64,000 nucleotides of DNA. It comes from Proteiniphilum propionicum (lineage in GTDB: Bacteria; Bacteroidota; Bacteroidia; Bacteroidales; Dysgonomonadaceae). The notes under the pieces were generated by a model. That model saw only the letters and a program-made list of their open reading frames with translations, ran no database searches and was not told where the DNA came from. The stretch spans positions 3,142,501 through 3,206,500 of the forward strand of contig NZ_CP073586.1 in assembly GCF_022267555.1 (NCBI RefSeq), read 5' to 3'. Shown here in pieces: positions 6,478 through 23,064 of this stretch. Numbering within the stretch: position 1 is the first letter of the stretch; the number at the start of each line of letters is the position of its first letter. The position numbers and the translations under genes are program-made.

Positions 6478-7263
6478 ATGAATAAAATTGTAGCAAAAGA
6501 TAACCTCTCCGACAGAGTAGTTCGATTTGAGGTTGAGGCTCCGCTGATTGCGAAAAGCCGTAAACCAGGCCACTTTGTAATTGTACGTGTAGGTAAAAAA
6601 GGGGAACGCGTTCCTTATACCATTGCCTCGGCCGACCCTAAAAAAGGCACTATTACTCTTGTAGTACAAAGAGTAGGCAAATCGTCCGAAAAGCTTTGTC
6701 TACTAGAGTCAGGTGATTACATCACCGACATGGTGGGACCGTTAGGGAAAGCTACTCACATCGAGAACTTCGGCACGGTAGTCTGTGCTGGTGGAGGTGT
6801 TGGAGTAGCTCCAATGCTTCCCATAATTGAAGCTATGAAAAAAGCAGGGAACAGAGTCGTTTCCGTACTGGGAGCCCGTACCAGGGAGTTGATTATCCTT
6901 GAAGAACAGGTTCATGAGCATTCCGATGAAGTGGTAATTATGACCGACGATGGTTCTTATGGGGAGAAGGGACTGATTACCGCCGGAGTGGAGAAAGTAA
7001 TAAAACGAGAGAAGGTGGACCTGTGCGTAACCATCGGTCCCGCCATCATGATGAAGTTTGTGTCGGAACTGACAAAAAAATACAATATACCCACCGTGGC
7101 ATCACTCAACACAATTATGGTGGATGGCACCGGAATGTGCGGTGCATGCCGTGTAACTGTTGGTGGGCATACAAAATTTGTTTGTGTCGATGGTCCCGAG
7201 TTCGATGCACATCAGGTAGACTTCGACGAGATGCTTATGAGATTAAGAGCCTACGACAAATAA
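6478..7263 (+). CDS. nfnA: NfnA-like FAD/NAD-binding subunit (ferredoxin:NADP+ oxidoreductase alpha)
   Basis: 261 residues of the dihydroorotate dehydrogenase electron-transfer / sulfide dehydrogenase FAD-binding family. The flavin motif RVPYTIAS lies at 44-51, the NAD(P)-binding glycine loop CAGGGVGVAP at about 103-112, and a C-terminal [2Fe-2S] site DGTGMCGAC with Cys221, Cys224 and Cys236. With NfnB it forms the cytoplasmic complex that couples NADH and reduced ferredoxin to NADP+ reduction by flavin-based electron bifurcation. The nfnB homologue starts 53 bp downstream. In some annotations the pair is called sulfide dehydrogenase; NfnAB is the better-supported reading. Confidence 0.88.
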   Translation: MNKIVAKDNLSDRVVRFEVEAPLIAKSRKPGHFVIVRVGKKGERVPYTIASADPKKGTITLVVQRVGKSSEKLCLLESGDYITDMVGPLGKATHIENFGTVVCAGGGVGVAPMLPIIEAMKKAGNRVVSVLGARTRELIILEEQVHEHSDEVVIMTDDGSYGEKGLITAGVEKVIKREKVDLCVTIGPAIMMKFVSELTKKYNIPTVASLNTIMVDGTGMCGACRVTVGGHTKFVCVDGPEFDAHQVDFDEMLMRLRAYDK

Positions 7264-7316
7264 CTCAAACACTTGCATCTGTCTTTTTGAATCTTGAAAA
7301 GTGAGCAATAAAAAAT

Positions 7317-15191: not shown

Positions 15192-15199
15192 TATCTTTG
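15192..15199 (+). promoter_or_regulatory. possible -7 box for tyrS
   Basis: TATCTTTG fits TAnnTTTG and lies 40 bp before the tyrS ATG. A TTTG -33 element is not present at the right distance. Confidence 0.4.
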
Positions 15200-15238
15200 C
15201 ATAATTTTTTGAATTCGATAAACAGACATACAAAGATT

Positions 15239-16531
15239 ATGAATTTTGTGGAAGAGCTCCGATGGCGCGGCATGATACAAGATATGATGCCAGGCACGGA
15301 AGAACAGTTACAAAAAGAGCAGACCGCAGGGTATCTTGGAATAGACCCCACAGCCGATTCACTGCATATAGGTCACCTGGTGGGTGTGATGATGCTAAAG
15401 CACTTGCAACGAGCCGGGCACAAGCCTATTGCTTTAATTGGCGGTGCCACAGGAATGATTGGCGACCCATCAATGAAGTCAGCAGAGAGAAAACTGCTCG
15501 ATGAAGATACGCTTCGACATAATCAGGAAGCAATAAAAAAACAATTATCCAAATTTCTTGACTTCGAGAGCGATATTCCCAATAGAGCTGTGCTGGTAAA
15601 TAATTACGATTGGATGAAAGATTACACTTTTCTCGCTTTCATACGTGACATCGGCAAACATATCACGGTAAACTATATGATGGCGAAAGACTCAGTAAAA
15701 AAACGTATCAGCGGCGAAGCGGGTGAAGGGATGTCGTTTACCGAATTCTCATATCAGCTGCTTCAGGGATATGATTATCTTTATCTTTTCCGGGAGATGG
15801 GGTGCCGGCTCCAACTGGGCGGATCTGACCAATGGGGAAATATTACAACCGGCACAGAACTCATTCGTCGTGTGGATAGCGGCGACGCATTCGGACTGGT
15901 ATGCCCTCTCATAACAAAAGCTGACGGTGGAAAATTCGGAAAAACAGAAAATGGTAACGTATGGCTCGACCGCCGCTATACATCACCTTATAAATTTTAC
16001 CAGTTCTGGATGAATGTGAGCGATGAGGATGCTGAAAAGTATATTAAAATATTTACCTCACTGTCGAGAGAAGAGATCGATGGATTAGTTTTGGAACAGA
16101 AATCATCACCTCACCTGCGTCCTTTGCAAAAGCGGCTGGCTGAAGAGCTGACAGTGATGGTGCACTCTCGTGAAGACTATGAGATGGCTTTTAACGCATC
16201 AGAGATCCTATTTGGCAAGTCCACCTCTCAGGCTCTGCGCTCTATTGATGAAGAGACTTTTCTTCAGGTATTTGAAGGAGTACCACAATTCTCAATCTCT
16301 CGCGGTAAACTAAACGAAGGAATAAGGGCGGTTGATCTTCTTACTGATGAAGCCAGCGTATTTCCTTCAAAGAGTGAGATGCGTAAGACAGTACAGTCTG
16401 GCGGAGTAATGATAAACAAAGAGAAGCTTGAAGCCTTTGATGAAGTAATCGGCGTTTCACATCTTATTGGAAATAAATATTTACTTGCACAGCGAGGAAA
16501 AAAGAATTATTTTCTACTTATTGCCGAATAG
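15239..16531 (+). CDS. tyrS: tyrosine--tRNA ligase
   Basis: 430 residues of a class I aminoacyl-tRNA synthetase. The catalytic HIGH-like motif is in [14 protein letters not shown] (about 35-48), the tyrosine pocket around [29 protein letters not shown] (about 172-200, described by its Tyr, Gln and Asp residues), and the KMSKS-like loop is [13 protein letters not shown] (about 232). An S4 RNA-binding domain forms the C-terminus. The ATG at 15239 matches the usual N-terminus ([15 protein letters not shown]); an upstream TTG at 15197 would add 14 atypical residues and overlap a -7 box. The tRNA-Gln gene follows. Confidence 0.95.
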
Positions 16532-16633: not shown

Positions 16634-16704
16634 TGTCCCATGGTGTAATGGTAGCACATCTGATTTTGGTTCAGCCAGTCTAGGTTCGAATCCTGGTGGG
16701 ACAA
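16634..16704 (+). tRNA. tRNA-Gln (anticodon TTG)
   Basis: A 71-nt cloverleaf. The acceptor arms TGTCCCA and TGGGACA pair fully, the discriminator is A, the anticodon TTG lies at 16666-16668, and the T-arm holds GGTTCGAATCC. CCA is not encoded. The gene is intact even though its 3' end forms the left attachment site of the integrated element that follows. Confidence 0.95.
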
Positions 16705-16708
16705 CAAC
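16693..16708. repeat. left attachment site of the integrated element (attL core)
   Basis: The 16-bp sequence CTGGTGGGACAACAAC covers the last 12 bases of tRNA-Gln plus four downstream bases. It recurs exactly at 22918-22933. Tyrosine recombinases commonly use a tRNA 3' end as attB, and the element rebuilds this end on insertion. Confidence 0.9.
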
Positions 16709-16710
16709 GT

Positions 16711-16751
16711 AAAGAGTGTAAAGGGTTTATAAACAACTACTTACACTCTTT
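16711..16751. terminator. hairpin beside attL, possible terminator
   Basis: Perfect 11-bp inverted arms AAAGAGTGTAA (16711-16721) and TTACACTCTTT (16741-16751) around a 19-nt loop. They lie immediately inside the element, 6 bp after the tRNA. It may end tRNA-Gln transcription or shield the element; a T-rich stretch follows (CTTTTTGCT). Confidence 0.5.
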
Positions 16752-16763
16752 CTTTTTGCTCTT

Positions 16764-16788
16764 ATAGCGGAATATATGGCGGAATATA
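16764..16788. repeat. left-end recombinase arm-site candidates
   Basis: Two copies of GCGGAATATA (16767-16776 and 16779-16788) spaced 12 bp, each preceded by ATA or ATG. The same decamer occurs at the other end of the element (22771-22780), with variants at 22783 and 22752. The layout resembles arm-type binding sites of tyrosine recombinases. Confidence 0.65.
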
Positions 16789-17239
16789 TTTTCAGCATAC
16801 ATATATTAACATTATGTCTATATATCAAAAATGAATGTTAACATAAACACCTGATGTACCATATATCATTACACTCTATTTAAGGGCATTTAGAGACGTT
16901 TTAAGCGACTTTCTCATTATGTGGCATACTCTTACTCATATCAAATGTTAAACGTGTCTTATATAGCCTTAAAATAGCTCACTACACTACCTTCATGTTA
17001 ACAATATAATAAGTACAATTATAACTGCATTAATATCTGGTATAGAACAAATTTTTAATAAATGAGTCAACTTCATTGCGTGTGGAGGTTGTAATGTTTT
17101 GACAAAAATAGGAAAAAATTTATGGGGAATAGTACTTATCATTCCACACCACCATATAGGGGGGTATACCCTATTAATCTGTAAAACATATATATAAATA
17201 CTATACTCTCGTACGTGATATATACAACATCTATTACAA
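16789..17239. other. non-coding left part of the element
   Basis: About 450 bp of AT-rich DNA between the arm-site repeats and a possible 30-aa gene. A hydrophobic reading frame on the minus strand (16993-17355) is judged spurious. I see no other repeats or known motifs. Confidence 0.4.
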
Positions 17240-17332
17240 ATGTCTGATATTTTTCCACCAAAAACCATCTGTGATAGCATTGTAGACAAAATGAATTTCG
17301 GTCGATTCCTCAACAACAAAAAGAAAGAGTAA
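17240..17332 (+). CDS. possible 30-residue peptide gene
   Basis: A short ATG-to-TAA frame whose product begins MSDIFPPKTICDSIVDKMN and ends with a basic NNKKKE tail. The balanced, hydrophilic, helix-compatible composition is unlike chance translation of the AT-rich surroundings, and it is the only candidate gene on the plus strand of the element. There is no recognisable family. Expression is unproven; it could also be coincidence. Confidence 0.35.
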   Translation: MSDIFPPKTICDSIVDKMNFGRFLNNKKKE

Positions 17333-17379
17333 GCATCACACCTACTCTCTCTCAAAAAACCTAATAAAAAAAGAATATC

Positions 17380-18030
17380 CTATTTACTCTTCAGTGTCAC
17401 GTGGTCTTGGGCAACTTCTGCAAATAACTCAGGTGTGAAACCTTCATCTATAAGCATCTGTAAACTGTAGCGATTTATATTCCTACCATTATTTCGTGTC
17501 AGCTCTCCATTTAGCACGTCAGGCAATCCATTCTTGGTTTGAAACTCTCTGAGTTCAGTCATAGCATCTATAATCTTCTTCACCTGTAAATAGTAGTCCG
17601 TCAGCTTCTTCACATTGATACGAATGGTAGCTTTTTTCTTGGATATGGACTCTATTTGATTATAATCAGCTATAATGGCATCTCCTTCTGCTAGTAATGG
17701 CAACCGCTCAGCCCTTATTCTTCTGAGTTTACTGACACTGTTTCTGAGTCGGTCGTGCAAGTCGCTATAGCTTTCAATGATTCTCATGCGTTCATCTACA
17801 GGCATAAACAAGTCCTTCATCTGGCGTTCCCTCAGCTTCGTTAAGTATGCTGAAAATGATTCGTCACTTTCTGTTATGGTCATGAAGAACTCCATAGTAG
17901 TAGGCAATCCTTCTTCTCTCAGAGCCTGTAAGCATAGCGGTAAATATTCTGCCAACTCGGTAAAACGACTCTTAGTGCTGTGATACAATGCGTAATCAAA
18001 CACTTCATTCTCAAATAATGTTTCTTTCAT
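17380..18030 (-). CDS. 216-residue protein of unknown function, element cargo
   Basis: No recognised family. The protein is soluble, highly charged and mostly helical: an N-terminal part with FTELAEYLPLCLQALREEG, a central coiled-coil-like stretch (about 75-165, with RLRNSVSKLRRIRAERLP), and a C-terminal NRYSLQMLIDEGFTPELFAEVAQDHV. It begins 2 nt after the stop of the 62-aa gene, so translation is probably coupled. As the last gene of the element's operon it is the best candidate for cargo or a host-interaction function. Confidence 0.75.
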   Translation of the reverse strand: MKETLFENEVFDYALYHSTKSRFTELAEYLPLCLQALREEGLPTTMEFFMTITESDESFSAYLTKLRERQMKDLFMPVDERMRIIESYSDLHDRLRNSVSKLRRIRAERLPLLAEGDAIIADYNQIESISKKKATIRINVKKLTDYYLQVKKIIDAMTELREFQTKNGLPDVLNGELTRNNGRNINRYSLQMLIDEGFTPELFAEVAQDHVTLKSK

Positions 18031-18032
18031 AT

Positions 18033-18221
18033 CTACTTGTTTTTATTATCTTTAAGTTGGATTGCATCCATATCAAGTAAATTTCTTAGCTTAGAAAAAT
18101 CATGTTTTTTTTCCTTTACTTCTGGAAAGGTTTTCTCTACTTTCTCTTTCATCTCATTTACGCTGTTTATCAACTCTTTTGCCCATTCTGGCACTTCATC
18201 AAAATTAGTCATGTCATTCAT
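18033..18221 (-). CDS. 62-residue small protein of the element
   Basis: A charged small protein containing VPEWAKELINSVNEMKEKVEK and ending in DNKNK; no family is recognised. The start context, ATG-AAY-GAY-ATG, resembles that of the DUF3987 gene in the same element (start at 20683), perhaps a copied translation-initiation region. It sits between the 47-aa gene (11 bp before) and the 216-aa gene (2 bp after), so it is almost certainly part of the operon. Confidence 0.65.
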   Translation of the reverse strand: MNDMTNFDEVPEWAKELINSVNEMKEKVEKTFPEVKEKKHDFSKLRNLLDMDAIQLKDNKNK

Positions 18222-18232
18222 AATTAAATAGT

Positions 18233-18376
18233 TTAGTTTTTTATTTTATACCTCACTTTACATTCTTTGGATACTCGGTTGTATATCAATACAATATCTT
18301 TATTTTCGTAAACTTCATTCCATTTCGTCTCGTGGCTGAAGTTCAGTCTCAGTAAATCAATTATTTTATTTTTCAT
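18233..18376 (-). CDS. 47-residue small protein overlapping the primase gene
   Basis: The ATG at 18376 lies inside the last codons of the upstream primase-like gene (overlap of 11 nt, different frame), and the frame ends TAA at 18233-18235. The product starts MKNKIIDLLRLNFSHETKWN and continues with VYENKDIVLIYNRVSKECKVRY. Composition is protein-like with alternating hydrophobic residues that could form beta-strands, and the overlap indicates coupled translation. No family is recognised. It is easy to miss because of its length. Confidence 0.6.
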   Translation of the reverse strand: MKNKIIDLLRLNFSHETKWNEVYENKDIVLIYNRVSKECKVRYKIKN

Positions 18377-19241
18377 TTTTCATTTGTTTTATAATGTAAT
18401 CTGCAATGTCGAGTCCATCTCTTCTTTCTTCATCTGTAGCTACCTGTTCAAGTAAATTTGAGACTTTAAAACCATATTTAGTTGCATATTTAGTCCAATC
18501 ATGATACGCTCCTAAATCAGGAAATAGTGTAACATCATGTCCTCTTAGTGCCTCTAAAAGTCGATAGTTCTGCTTACCACCTGTAGCAACCCATGTGTAC
18601 TCTGGTATTGTCAGACTCGCTATAATGGCACTCTTTTCGCTTTCTACTACGGCTAGAGGTGTGGTGGACTTCTTCACTAAATGCAACCCATACAGGCATT
18701 GTGATAGTTGATAAGGACTCTTAACGTGCCTATGCACCCAATCAAATGAGTTCTTCACATTCTTAGCCCGCTTACCTGTCACTGGGTCGTATAACATTAT
18801 CTTACCTGTCCTGATGCGGTCTTCTCGGTCTATTTGCCAATAGATTACCCTTCCTTCTTTGTGGTCTCCAATTCGGTATCTATCGATGGCTCTTGCAACG
18901 TCTATTAATGGAAAATATTTTGTCAAAAAGTGAATAAAGTTATTATCAGTATTTAGACTTCTCACCATCATTTCCTCAGGTATGTAGTCAGTAGGTGGTA
19001 GTGGTTTCGGCGCAACATGAATAGTAGGTGTATAGTCTATTCCTTTGTCTTTAAAGTACTCTGATGGTGTCAAATGATAACCGCATTTATCCTCTCTATT
19101 GCATCTGCCTACATTGTCAGATATATAATTACCTCTTTCATCTACATAACGTACAAATGATTGGTAGGTATGGCAGTGTGGGCACTCGTGCCTTGTGGTT
19201 CTGCCTTTGTATTTTTCCAACTTATATTTAAACTCTTTCAT
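18366..19241 (-). CDS. Zn-ribbon/toprim primase-like protein (DUF6371-type)
   Basis: 291 residues. The N-terminal zinc ribbon has Cys20, Cys23 (ECPHCHTYQSF), Cys47 and Cys53 (GRCNREDKCGYH). The C-terminal half has toprim-like motifs: VVESEKSAIIAS with the catalytic-type Glu, and LFPDLGAYHDW with acidic residues. This arrangement matches small primase-like proteins on Bacteroidales mobile elements, often listed as DUF6371. It probably primes or assists element DNA synthesis with the DUF3987 ATPase encoded upstream. A conserved repeat block (19257-19332) precedes its start. Confidence 0.75.
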   Translation of the reverse strand: MKEFKYKLEKYKGRTTRHECPHCHTYQSFVRYVDERGNYISDNVGRCNREDKCGYHLTPSEYFKDKGIDYTPTIHVAPKPLPPTDYIPEEMMVRSLNTDNNFIHFLTKYFPLIDVARAIDRYRIGDHKEGRVIYWQIDREDRIRTGKIMLYDPVTGKRAKNVKNSFDWVHRHVKSPYQLSQCLYGLHLVKKSTTPLAVVESEKSAIIASLTIPEYTWVATGGKQNYRLLEALRGHDVTLFPDLGAYHDWTKYATKYGFKVSNLLEQVATDEERRDGLDIADYIIKQMKNEK

Positions 19242-19256
19242 ATATAAATATTCCTT

Positions 19257-19332
19257 AGGTCACACATCACACATCACAATCACCTGAAACCATTTACGGG
19301 AAAGGTTTTGAACGTCTTTCAGGGTGTGACCT
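19257..19332. repeat. repeat block A: inverted AGGTCAC arms with conserved centre
   Basis: AGGTCAC (19257-19263) and its inverse GTGACCT (19326-19332) flank a 62-bp segment with tandem CACACAT/CACACAT-type units and a centre CTGAAACCATTTACGGG. Block B (21225-21306) shares TCACACATCACA, CTGAAA-C-TTTAC and GTGTGACCT in the same order. It may be an operator, a recombination site or part of an origin. Confidence 0.65.
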
Positions 19333-19381
19333 GTTGCTCTATTCATATCTATATCACTATCTCCTAACATCACACTTTAAA

Positions 19382-20683
19382 TTAGTTGAAACCTGCTTCT
19401 GTAGTGGGTTCTATTGCAGTGTGACCTGTGACCTGTGACCTGCACACTCTATTTACATATTCTCTTGAGACTCCAACCATCTCAGCTACTTTTGTCTGAT
19501 TGGCTTCGGGGTTTTCCGCAAATATTTGCAGTATCAAGTCTTTCTTGGTCGATACTTCTTCCCTTTGCTCTACTTTAAATTTATCAAGTGACTTAATGAA
19601 ATACTTCACCATTCCTACACCTGCCATCATATCCACGTCAGACACTGAAGTGTCGGGTACTTCAGATAGTCGTGCTATCTTAACGGTCAGTGCCAACCTG
19701 AGGACTTGGATTTGTGCCTTACTGAAAACTGCACTCCAAAAGTCATTTGCCTTAATACGTCTGCCCTCCATATCATTGTAGAACTGTTCGTATACGTCTT
19801 CGGCTTCGGCAGAAAGATGCATCTCGCCACCACCACCATACGACTCAATTCTATCTATCATATTGTCGAATGCTTCGGAGTCAGGTGTAGTCCCACCACG
19901 TTTATATTTTCGTATCGGAAATTCAGGATAAAGGAACATGAACCGTTGCGCAAAACCTGATTGTTCAAAGTTGTTTTTTGTCAATAATTCAGAAAGAACA
20001 CTTGGCTGTATAGTCCCATAAATATTCAGGAACGGTTCTTCAATTAATTGTGGTTGCTCTTTTTTTCTATTTATGCTGAATGTTTGATTGTCAAAGATAG
20101 AGAGGTAGTGTCCCACTTCACCACTCTTGTTATATCTACCGAAGTCTGAGAACCACCCGCTCAGCTCATCTCTATTAAGGGTTAGTCCATTCTCAGCGTA
20201 AGATAGTGCGTTAAACATAGCTTCGGGAGTAGTATCATTAATAAGCATCTGCGCCCAATGTGGTGGTGTGCCTTGCTTCTCCTCAGCTTCCCATTCCTTA
20301 TATTCCTCTTGGTATCTCAGGTATCTCTCAGCGTCAATCTCTGATATTCTCTTGAATGCGACTCTCCCTGCATCACTCTTTCCTGTTCCTGAAGAACCTA
20401 CCACAATTACCCACAATTGAGGGTAGTTTTTATAGTTCCCTACCGTCAAGTACATTCGCTTACCTGATGCTGTGGCAATGGCTGTCAGGAATGCAACCGC
20501 CCAAAGTTCTTCAGGCGTGCCATAACTCTCTGCGTGTTCTCTGATGGTCTCTTGCAACCATTCAGGGAGTAGGTCAGTCGGGAATGCAGTCTGCTCTTGG
20601 GTGGTCTCTGTGGCAGTGGCGGTCGGAATAATTACTCCCTCGCCGTTTTTTATTTTTTCTATAATATTTATCATATCGTTCAT
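19382..20683 (-). CDS. DUF3987-type P-loop ATPase / helicase-like replication protein
   Basis: 433 residues. A Walker A loop GSSGTGKS lies at 96-103, after WVIVV; acidic candidates for Walker B lie further on (LNRDELSGWFSDFG, about 165-180). DUF3987 proteins are common on Bacteroidota integrative elements beside primase-like genes and are thought to act in element replication. A C-terminal HTH (NQTKVAEMVGVSREYVNRV, about 395-415) suggests binding to element DNA. Its last codons themselves contain three tandem AGGTCAC heptamers (19421-19441). It follows the HTH gene by 23 bp. Confidence 0.8.
   Translation of the reverse strand: MNDMINIIEKIKNGEGVIIPTATATETTQEQTAFPTDLLPEWLQETIREHAESYGTPEELWAVAFLTAIATASGKRMYLTVGNYKNYPQLWVIVVGSSGTGKSDAGRVAFKRISEIDAERYLRYQEEYKEWEAEEKQGTPPHWAQMLINDTTPEAMFNALSYAENGLTLNRDELSGWFSDFGRYNKSGEVGHYLSIFDNQTFSINRKKEQPQLIEEPFLNIYGTIQPSVLSELLTKNNFEQSGFAQRFMFLYPEFPIRKYKRGGTTPDSEAFDNMIDRIESYGGGGEMHLSAEAEDVYEQFYNDMEGRRIKANDFWSAVFSKAQIQVLRLALTVKIARLSEVPDTSVSDVDMMAGVGMVKYFIKSLDKFKVEQREEVSTKKDLILQIFAENPEANQTKVAEMVGVSREYVNRVCRSQVTGHTAIEPTTEAGFN
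19421..19441. repeat. three tandem GTGACCT heptamers within the DUF3987 gene
   Basis: Exact 7-bp copies at 19421, 19428 and 19435. The same triple occurs at 21286-21306, and single copies flank block A. Iteron-like spacing suggests a protein-binding site, even though this copy is inside codons for SQVTGH. Confidence 0.75.
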
Positions 20684-20706
20684 ATAGTTATAAGTGAATA
20701 ACCTAA

Positions 20707-21015
20707 TTATGCTCTTCGGTACTTCATAGGTTGAACTGCATTCAGTGCATTCGCCACGTCTTCTTTCCGAAAACGTATTGTTTTCTCACCCACCCTGTGA
20801 GCGGTAAGATAACCTTTCTTAACATAACTATGGAGTGTAGGCAATGATACACCCAACATCTCTGCTGTCTCTTTGCGTGATAGATACTCTGGAGTTGTGT
20901 CCTTCGGTATTGTCTCAGAAATGGCTGTCAGTGCGTTTTTCACCTCTTCTGCAACTATACCTTTAATAGTTTCGCTTAACTCCTCAACTGAAATTCCTTG
21001 CAAAAATAACCCCAT
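20707..21015 (-). CDS. HTH DNA-binding protein, excisionase-like
   Basis: 102 residues. The C-terminal half is a MerR-like/HTH_17 winged helix (YLSRKETAEMLGVSLPTLHSYVKKG, described by positions ~43-67) ending in a basic tail. The N-terminal half is helical and acidic (VEELSETIKGIVAEEVKNAL) and may mediate oligomerisation. Such proteins next to tyrosine recombinases usually serve as recombination directionality factors or regulators. It is the first gene of the replication operon, 23 bp before DUF3987. Confidence 0.82.
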   Translation of the reverse strand: MGLFLQGISVEELSETIKGIVAEEVKNALTAISETIPKDTTPEYLSRKETAEMLGVSLPTLHSYVKKGYLTAHRVGEKTIRFRKEDVANALNAVQPMKYRRA

Positions 21016-21192
21016 GCTATAAAATTTTATTTGTTAATTAAAAAATCTGTTTTACTTAAAAAACATTAAACGAATTTAACATAATCTTTTATTATACGCA
21101 AGGGTTTTTAAGCGTTTTTTACTGGGGCAAGGGGAGTTGTTTGTTTTTAGCAGGTCTTTTTTTACTATAATCCTGAATAACAGGCAAATAAA

Positions 21193-21219
21193 AAACCCAT
21201 AGCGTTTAAACTACGGGTT
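21193..21219 (-). terminator. terminator of the recombinase gene
   Basis: On the minus strand AACCCGTAG pairs with CTATGGGTT (one G-T pair) around an 8-9 nt loop, followed by TTTTTATTTG. It lies past repeat block B, so the recombinase transcript would include that block. Confidence 0.7.
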
Positions 21220-21224
21220 CTCGG

Positions 21225-21306
21225 CAATCACACATCACACTTCACATCTGCTGAAATCGTTTACAGGATTAGGTTATATGGGAGTGTGACCTGTGACCTG
21301 TGACCT
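21225..21306. repeat. repeat block B: related to block A, with three GTGACCT heptamers
   Basis: TCACACATCACACTTCACAT begins the block, CTGAAATCGTTTACAGG forms the centre, and tandem heptamers at 21286, 21293 and 21300 end it. Order and orientation of parts match block A (19257-19332). Both blocks lie in gaps between element genes, at gene 3' ends. Confidence 0.7.
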
Positions 21307-21319
21307 TTGGGTGAAGTGG

Positions 21320-22705
21320 TCACATAGACTTTACTACGGTCAATTGATTAAAGAACTGATGGTGTGACATCTTTTTTGCACTTTCTTCTGCACTTATCCT
21401 TATATATTTGAGAAATGCTACTTCTGTCTTGTGTCCTGTCACCTTCATTATATCAAGCGTAGGAACGTCTGCTATATAGGCATTTGTCGCAAAACTTCTA
21501 CGTGCTGTGTGACTCGTTACAAGTTCATACTTCGGCAATGTAGTAGTGGTCAGCTTCCCTGCGGTCGTGTGGGTACGTGTCACTGGTGCAGTTATCCCTG
21601 CCATCTTTGCTATATCTTTGATGAATTGATTGTACTTCTGATTGCTGATAGGTTTCGGCAACTTATAATCATATTTTTTAAAGATACGCTTCACACGTGG
21701 AGTCACAGGCGCATAGATGGTCTTCCCTGTCTTCTGCGTCTGTATTTTAATAAGTCCTTCTTCTGTGATATTCTCGGCAGTCAAGCGTATCACGTCTGAG
21801 TATCGGAGTCCTGTGTCTGATGCAATGAGAAACATATCTCTGACTTTATCTAAAGACTTGGGTAGCAATACAAGTGCATCTATGGCATTCAGTTCGTCTA
21901 CGTTCAAATAAATGCTCTCAGTCTCTTCTGATGGCTTGGCAAAGGACTTCTTCCGGAAATCATCACTATACTTTACTCCCTTCTTTTCACTTGCGTAATT
22001 AAGAACGGTTTTCACTATCTTTATGCGTGTGCCTATGGTGTTTTTTGCCAACCCTTCGGCAGTCAGATACTTCACAAAGGAATGGTAGAAGTCCTCATCT
22101 GCGGTCAGTGGAGTCACGACCGTCTTATACTTGGTCTGATACTCTGCAATGTTCTTTCTTACCACTTTGTAGCTTTTTATCGTGGACTCCTTCAGGTTTG
22201 AGAGTGTTTCTATCATATGGTCTATGAACTGCACAAGGTTCATATCTGAGAAGTCCCTGTTCCCATCTACACTACTTTCTTCTATTCTGTCAGGATTGTA
22301 GATGCGGTCGAGTTCCACCTTTACACGCTCTCTGATTGGCAACCTACCATCTACGGTTAGATCATTAACGATGCGTTCAACGTGGAGTCGGAACTCCAAC
22401 AAATTAGAGTTCATTTCAGATTGATTCTTTTTAGCTGAGGATTTAATGGAACTGTATGTTCCCTCTATCTGTGCATCTACACTTGCCAACTGGTCGCCAT
22501 ACTCCACACGAACATCTTTAGCGTTCCATAGTGCCACAGGTACACTAACAGGGGTGGTGTACTTCAACTGAAGATACTTTCTATCCTTATTCTTACCTTT
22601 ACCCTTACCACGCTCTACAATGGTATATAGTCCATAATTTATTTCAGCATAAATGTTTGTTACATCTGCTTTTTTGTCTGTAAGTCGGAAATTCACTCGT
22701 ACCAT
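21320..22705 (-). CDS. tyrosine recombinase / integrase
   Basis: 461 residues. The N-terminal arm-binding and core-binding domains cover about 1-265. The catalytic domain holds Arg in SDTGLRYSDV (about 298), HTARRSF with His and Arg (about 403-406), the GH of VTGHKTEV, and nucleophile Tyr434 in FLKYIR. All catalytic residues are present, so it should be active. It is of the Bacteroidota transposon/ICE integrase type. It lies near the right end, transcribed toward the tRNA, with candidate arm sites 40-90 bp upstream of its start. It probably integrates and, with the HTH protein, excises the element. Confidence 0.92.
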   Translation of the reverse strand: MVRVNFRLTDKKADVTNIYAEINYGLYTIVERGKGKGKNKDRKYLQLKYTTPVSVPVALWNAKDVRVEYGDQLASVDAQIEGTYSSIKSSAKKNQSEMNSNLLEFRLHVERIVNDLTVDGRLPIRERVKVELDRIYNPDRIEESSVDGNRDFSDMNLVQFIDHMIETLSNLKESTIKSYKVVRKNIAEYQTKYKTVVTPLTADEDFYHSFVKYLTAEGLAKNTIGTRIKIVKTVLNYASEKKGVKYSDDFRKKSFAKPSEETESIYLNVDELNAIDALVLLPKSLDKVRDMFLIASDTGLRYSDVIRLTAENITEEGLIKIQTQKTGKTIYAPVTPRVKRIFKKYDYKLPKPISNQKYNQFIKDIAKMAGITAPVTRTHTTAGKLTTTTLPKYELVTSHTARRSFATNAYIADVPTLDIMKVTGHKTEVAFLKYIRISAEESAKKMSHHQFFNQLTVVKSM

Positions 22706-22745
22706 ATCTCAAAGATTAAGTTTGTTACTGATACAAATATAACTA

Positions 22746-22792
22746 TATATGGTGGAATAAAAAAGATATGGCGGAATATATGGCGGAATTTA
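22746..22792. repeat. right-end recombinase arm-site candidates
   Basis: GCGGAATATA (22771-22780) and GCGGAATTTA (22783-22792) are spaced 12 bp, with a diverged copy GTGGAATAAA at 22752-22761. Orientation and spacing match the pair at the left end (16767-16788). The position just upstream of the recombinase start would also let the protein repress its own gene. Confidence 0.65.
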
Positions 22793-22917
22793 ACTTAATC
22801 ACTTTACTTTATTCTTTATTGTGTTTAACTATAAGAATAGGTACACTCTCTATTTATCAACATTATACACGCTATTCTTTATCGTACAAATAATATAAAG
22901 TTAATAGTAGTGTTGTT

Positions 22918-22933
22918 CTGGTGGGACAACAAC
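22918..22933. repeat. right attachment site of the integrated element (attR core)
   Basis: An exact copy of CTGGTGGGACAACAAC found at the tRNA-Gln 3' end. The bases to the left (GTTGTT) no longer match the tRNA, which sets the boundary of the element. Confidence 0.9.
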
Positions 22934-23064
22934 AAAAACGCTATTACTCTGACAAAATAGATTAATAGCGTTTTTATTTTCCTAATATGCGAAACTCATA
23001 TTTTTTGTTCTACTTTTATGCATAAAAGTAACTCCGAAAAACATCGGAATCGGTGCCTTAAAAA

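Follow-up and report, generated by a model that had tools for sequence, protein, structure and literature searches.

How does an integrative element spread when it encodes no visible machinery for its own transfer? The question is raised by a unit of about 6.2 kb in the chromosome of Proteiniphilum propionicum, at positions 16693 to 22933 of the 64-kb stretch analyzed here (positions 3,142,501 to 3,206,500 of contig NZ_CP073586.1), which is referred to below as the window and supplies all coordinates unless a related locus (L number) is named; genomes carry G numbers. A first-pass annotation of this DNA had proposed either a helper-dependent satellite or a stripped-down mobilizable element. 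Our comparisons with related loci suggest that the element is probably an intact, minimal integrative phage satellite. The satellite half of the earlier proposal is favored by a 47-amino-acid (47-aa) marker protein, by the integrase and attachment core of locus L148, and by the primase of locus L022, all of which are found in elements equipped with virion or packaging genes. The mobilizable half is less likely but keeps some weight because the same chassis of integration and replication genes is also found with relaxases in mobilizable elements.

The boundaries proposed in the first pass, perfect 16-bp direct repeats of which one is the tRNA-Gln 3' end, were recovered by a repeat search of the window and by tRNA calls. 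The integration target is tRNA-Gln(TTG) (16634..16705, plus strand; ARAGORN and the Rfam tRNA model), immediately 3' of tyrS (ORF [open reading frame] 15197-16531, named by eye). The 16-mer at the 3' end of this tRNA gene, CTGGTGGGACAACAAC, has exactly two copies in the window, the attL core at 16693..16708 and the attR core at 22918..22933 (both plus strand), and beyond these two the longest exact match to the 79-nt tRNA stretch within the window is 10 nt. The repeats delimit 6,225 bp with a G+C content of 0.384, versus 0.411 in the remainder of the window, in a genome (G000) that is a single 3.9-Mb contig. Seven genes are supported, every one on the minus strand, open and closely packed; about 670 bp at the left end (16709-17379) contain no supported gene. 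The integrase, the core repeat at the tRNA 3' end and the empty-looking sites in relatives described below identify the unit as an integrative element that targets a tRNA gene.

The integration and replication genes were identified much as first proposed. The tyrosine recombinase (integrase; 461 aa, 21320..22705, minus strand) matches PF00589 (E 1.6e-12), PF13102 (7.6e-11) and phrog_1 (2.6e-32), and it has the full complement of residues claimed for it: R301, K325, H399, R402, H425 and Y434, which we take to be the catalytic motif. Pfam matches likewise bear out the excisionase-like helix-turn-helix (HTH) protein, the DUF3987 ATPase and the Zn-ribbon/toprim primase-like protein. The first is a 102-aa DNA-binding protein of the HTH_17/excisionase family, Xis/AlpA-like (20707..21015, minus strand; PF12728 2e-10, TIGR01764 4.7e-10, phrog_66 2.6e-9). 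The second is a 433-aa replication ATPase/helicase (19382..20683, minus strand; PF13148 2.7e-50, phrog_2373 DNA helicase 2.3e-33) with a Walker A motif at residues 96-103. The third, of 291 aa (18366..19241, minus strand), combines Zn_ribbon_16 (PF21957 4e-25) with a toprim-like DUF6371 primase domain (PF19898 5.1e-48) and has a weak PHROG primase match (phrog_47 DNA primase, 1.6e-5).

Genes for transfer or virions were not recognized. Pfam and PHROGs scans of eight ORFs of the element yielded no match to a relaxase, portal or capsid protein, and none to a terminase that reached a cut-off, which agrees with the earlier statement that no relaxase, terminase or capsid gene is visible. Two weak terminase matches (phrog_57, E 0.013; PF06056, E 0.045) fall on the excisionase HTH. 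No tail gene was recognized in the element, nor a TerS gene or a pac site; relatives have TerS, protease, capsid or tape measure genes. Since scans of its proteins revealed no virion set of its own, the element is not a phage. Four reference mobilization proteins had no match in the element or in 17 satellite-type loci, in a search that recovered the four positives.

The clearest link to phage-riding elements is the 47-aa protein (18233..18376, minus strand), whose family is common to phage-gene-bearing elements and joins the window with L021, L022, L036 and L122. These loci and the window supplied the search model, together with IMG/VR loci that had been picked up through a gene of a phage element. 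Of 39 genus genomes, six have the family, at eight loci in all, and among 393 genomes of the order it was found in a single one, that of the element itself; it is also present in five of the eight IMG/VR loci recruited by the 174-aa gene of L022 (L125, L127 and L129-L131). Six of the seven other marker loci in the genus have virion or packaging genes. Three of the seven (L021, L022 and L122) contributed to the model. Packaging or head genes are present at all four that did not (L147-L150), a count to be read with the knowledge that the L147 excisionase is identical to that of L122, so that at least one of these loci has kin among the model rows. L147 has TerS (phrog_51, 4.1e-38). L148 has a head protease identical to that of L125 (phrog_80), within which its contig ends. 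L149, with the weakest marker match of the set (E 1.7e-7), has homologs of the protease, capsid and tape measure of L150, and L122 has a minor head protein, TerS and TerL. L148 is also the nearest relative in integration: its integrase is 33% identical, an HTH_17 gene is present, and its attachment core matches 14 of 16 bases, the next best place in its contig matching 11 of 16. Thus, relatives of the element do exist elsewhere, as the first pass had required, whether traced by the marker, the primase or the 216-aa protein described below.

Two of these relatives are complete. One (L150:132-14073) is a 13.9-kb element between perfect 27-bp tRNA-Ser repeats, with genes for an integrase, an AAA ATPase, a PriCT-type protein, the 47-aa marker, a head protease, a major head protein and a tape measure protein. 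The part of its ORFs that was scanned (eight proteins with PHROGs, two with Pfam) gave no portal or TerL, and its gene content makes it a candidate capsid-encoding satellite in Bacteroidales. The other (L022:4118-16594), 12.4 kb between perfect 46-bp tRNA-Arg repeats, encodes a protein of 1371 aa that resembles a tape measure and another with a weak likeness to a terminase small subunit, with no capsid among the proteins scanned. L122:9151-20000, together with L123, is a second element in genome G024, with DnaB, a minor head protein, 174- and 87-aa genes, TerS and TerL. Parts of the L122 cassette recur at 80-100% identity in several of the IMG/VR loci L125-L132, with different replication modules.

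Relatives of the DUF6371 primase were found at 33 genome loci, in six phage-collection records and on 11 plasmids; for most of the 33, the scan was limited to 28 reference proteins, so that other cargo may have been missed. The closest primases are those of L022 (69% identity) and L036 (68%). Some DUF6371 elements have packaging genes downstream, TerL in L040 and TerS in L038. In L036:2010-10918 the primase and a 47-aa gene are followed by BrxA, BrxB and BrxC. Other elements with the same chassis have mobilization genes: L136 has a relaxase (PF03432, 6e-9), L137 a Mob_Pre protein (PF01076, 2.5e-23), and L138 (CP103138.1) an annotated mobilization protein and cfxA, with a mobilization protein 60% identical to it in L134. 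The L134/L138-type proteins are unmatched by Pfam relaxase models, and therefore a Pfam miss alone says little about the absence of a relaxase. Because phage-riding and conjugation-riding elements have the chassis in common, the chassis alone is not decisive; the balance is tipped toward a satellite by the 47-aa marker, the integrase and core of L148, and the nearest primases. As a separate observation, an integrase relative (44%) lies in a small element, L024:7413-12721, that also has small genes and encodes a replication protein of the HUH type (REP_ORF2-G2P, E 6.3e-9), near a tRNA-Asp at 7222-7296; it could be an integrated single-stranded DNA phage.

Where the first pass counted three to four small genes, three stand, encoding the 47-aa protein, a 62-aa protein with a PEWAKELIN motif (18033..18221, minus strand) and an adjoining 216-aa helical protein of a new family (17380..18030, minus strand). 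The fourth, ORF 16993-17355, the eighth of the ORFs scanned, was unsupported and left out of the gene count. None of the three proteins matches a curated family at its cut-off. The 216-aa family is present in 3 of 101 relatives and in 2 of 393 order genomes, the element's own included. Its homologs are in L021 (33% identity) and L022/L037 (30%), with a distant one in L035 (E 1.4e-9) and a doubtful one in L048 (E 0.011). In L021, from the same genus, the neighbor of the homolog is a 57-aa protein related to the 62-aa one (48%, E 2e-16), with the order of the two genes reversed; a 301-aa protein without a family match is encoded downstream of this pair (L021:9500-10405). The L022 homolog (203 aa) lies between the replication genes and the phage cassette, and the distant L035 copy adjoins a terminase-small-like gene. 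The best AF2 model of the 216-aa protein had a pLDDT of 69 and matched no known fold. PADLOC gave weak matches for the 216-aa (E 0.0066) and 62-aa (E 0.014) proteins, and its best match for a 216-aa homolog was Csn2 (E 1.3e-4, across 43 residues). The 216-aa protein is a candidate hijack, interference or accessory protein. The three small genes most likely form a satellite-specific slot that redirects or resists a helper. If a guess is made at their role, hijacking has rather less than an even chance, and defence or exclusion and some other role are each less probable again.

The absence of empty tRNA-Gln sites in relatives would have spoken for a fixed remnant, but most scorable sites in the genus look empty. 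A tyrS-tRNA-Gln probe matched 35 of 39 genus genomes, some solely via another tRNA-Gln. Besides the element's own locus, 29 loci were fetched (L070-L098) and 26 could be scored, L071 being masked and L091 and L095 having no tRNA motif. A perfect-stem hairpin with a T-run directly follows tRNA-Gln at 17 of the 26; the background for such a hairpin is 23 of 300 random window positions. An imperfect hairpin was seen by eye at L077, L079, L082, L083 and L096, and L070 was ambiguous. The tRNA-Gln genes of L092, L093 and L094, from three genomes of the genus, have no terminator-like hairpin after them, and another insertion may exist there. In the window, a hairpin of the empty-site kind lies beyond the right repeat (22934..22975, plus strand; 12-bp stem, T-run) and is probably the displaced tRNA-Gln terminator; the element therefore appears to have inserted between the tRNA gene and its terminator. 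The element carries a hairpin and T-run of its own (16711..16751, plus strand; perfect 11-bp stem) that could act as a terminator for the interrupted tRNA-Gln transcript.

Repeats within the element suggest sites for its replication and excision. TGTGACC occurs nine times in the element and not at all in the other 57.8 kb of the window; in 500 shuffles it occurred 0.65 times on average and never more than 4 times. The copies belong to three iteron modules, all given on the plus strand: inverted TGTGA-type repeats around about 45 nt (module 1, 19257..19334), a module overlapping the DUF3987 gene at its 3' end (module 2, 19367..19441) and one separating the excisionase gene from the integrase gene (module 3, 21228..21324). 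Modules 1 and 2, at the border of the DUF3987 and primase genes, are a candidate replication origin, and the iterons may also serve as an operator. In L022, an iteron array unrelated to these lies at the 3' end of the replication ATPase gene, and there is another close to the left end of L022. An imperfect 35-bp end repeat (GGCGGAATATATGGCGGAAT-like), found by repeat search at 16763..16797 and 22767..22801 (plus strand; copies 83% identical), provides candidate arm sites for the integrase and excisionase.

A possible helper is visible in a relative. In addition to L148 and L149, genome G026 contains a tailed prophage (L152:1336-20000 and L153) with portal (PF04860, 1.2e-90), TerL (PF20441, PF03354), TerS, protease, capsid and tape measure genes, the last three products being 70%, 49% and 45% identical to those of L150. 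It is plausible that this prophage is the helper for L148 and L149.

Among known systems the closest in plan are the phage-inducible chromosomal minimalist islands (PICMIs). In PMC10803314, PICMI115 is described as 6,110 bp with int, alpA, prim and three small genes; it bears a defence gene and is packaged as concatemers, PICMIs being without capsid remodeling genes. The element matches three of the four mandatory PICMI genes: an integrase (PF00589), an AlpA-type regulator (PF12728, E 2e-10; the PICMI definition accepts PF05930 or PF12728) and, if the primase models DUF3987 and DUF5906 are read as alternatives, a primase (PF13148, DUF3987, E 2.7e-50; DUF5906 was not among the matches). Both kinds of element are about 6.1-6.2 kb, bounded by direct repeats and without capsid remodeling genes, with an integrase, an AlpA-type HTH protein, a DUF3987-class primase and a few small genes of no assigned role. 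However, PICMIs integrate at fis in Vibrionaceae, whereas the element occupies tRNA-Gln in Bacteroidales, another phylum; it has a separate DUF6371 primase; and its helper and packaging are putative. We regard it as PICMI-like on paper and not as a PICMI. The review PMC11389934 keeps satellites apart from both relaxase-bearing and oriT-only mobilizable elements; the oriT-only class is the strongest competitor of the satellite reading here.

Closer to home are two other types. Bacteroides mobilizable elements of the cfxA-plasmid type (L138, which we take to be Tn4555) likewise have an integrase, an excisionase, a replication ATPase and a DUF6371 primase. They differ in having a mobilization protein downstream of the primase, where the element has none, and an ATPase of the AAA/RecA type rather than DUF3987. 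The candidate capsid-encoding satellites L149 and L150, presumably of the capsid-forming PICI (cf-PICI) type, are from the same genus and share the 47-aa family, an integrase and, in L150, a tRNA target, but L150 encodes a head protease, a major head protein and a tape measure protein and the element none of these.

Several observations weigh against a satellite. The element itself lacks a terminase, a capsid or any other phage-specific gene, and the case depends on relatives. L021, the sole relative with both the 216- and 62-aa genes, has no recognized virion gene; L036 has BREX genes instead; and the chassis accompanies relaxases or mobilization proteins in L134, L136, L137 and L138. The 216-aa protein was unmatched in 50,697 phage records and in IMG/VR. 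The terminase-small likeness of the L022 and L035 genes is weak (phrog_51, E 0.018), and a profile comparison of the pair with clear TerS gave E 2e-4 yet a probability of 44. The element's own genome has no match to Terminase_6N or Phage_portal, the families searched for there, although a virulent phage could also be the helper, which is the case for PICMIs (PMC10803314).

An integrative mobilizable element without a relaxase, which would excise and replicate by itself and be conjugated via an oriT used by the relaxase of another element, would account for the core of integrase, excisionase, DUF3987 or AAA ATPase and DUF6371 primase that recurs in L134, L136, L137 and L138, where the mobilization gene lies downstream of the primase, in the position of the 47-, 62- and 216-aa genes. 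We consider it unlikely: the element has no relaxase-like match, the 47-aa marker was not found in any of the four relaxase elements retrieved and stands beside virion or packaging genes at six of seven other genus loci, and the nearest-primase loci L022 and L036 have no match to the reference mobilization proteins. A fixed or decaying remnant that has lost its transfer or virion genes would explain the missing transfer gene and the gene-poor left end, yet no damage is seen in the core repeats, the end repeats or the key motifs, the seven genes have uninterrupted reading frames and lie close together, and most scorable sites in relatives look empty, all of which makes decay improbable. It is more improbable still that the unit is a small defence or accessory island with an inherited replication core, its 62- and 216-aa proteins acting against phages. 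The same chassis does bear BREX genes in L036, and PICMI115 bears a defence gene (PMC10803314), but the PADLOC matches of the two proteins are weak, and such a role is compatible with being a satellite.

If the element is a phage satellite, infection or induction of a tailed phage would lead the HTH_17 protein and the integrase to excise it via the 16-bp core and the end repeats. The DUF3987 and DUF6371 proteins would then replicate it from the iteron region, and packaging would fall to the terminase and capsid of the helper, perhaps in the concatemeric form described for PICMIs. Once the DNA has been injected, the integrase would return it to tRNA-Gln.

Gene for gene the element consists of ordinary parts; the whole is unusual. 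It is most likely a satellite, one of the most pared-down in a range of elements within the genus that extends to capsid-encoding members. More tentatively, and with clearly less than an even chance of being right, Bacteroidales may have a swappable chassis (integrase, HTH_17 protein, DUF3987 or AAA ATPase, DUF6371 primase, iterons) to which either a relaxase or a phage-hijack module (TerS/TerL, protease and capsid, tape measure) is attached downstream. The element would then be its most reduced phage-riding form, new 62- and 216-aa proteins replacing all known packaging genes. Most of what is known about phage satellites comes from Proteobacteria and Firmicutes, and our literature search for phage satellites, PICI or cf-PICI in Bacteroidota found no description in titles or abstract openings, subscription papers and most preprints lying outside its scope. 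If the satellite assignment is true, a Bacteroidales genus would harbor a satellite set whose members range from 6 kb, devoid of virion genes, to 14 kb, encoding capsid and tape measure proteins, beside a plausible helper prophage (in G026). The gain and loss of packaging genes within a satellite lineage would become testable, as would the idea that a single chassis alternates between conjugative and phage-borne transfer.

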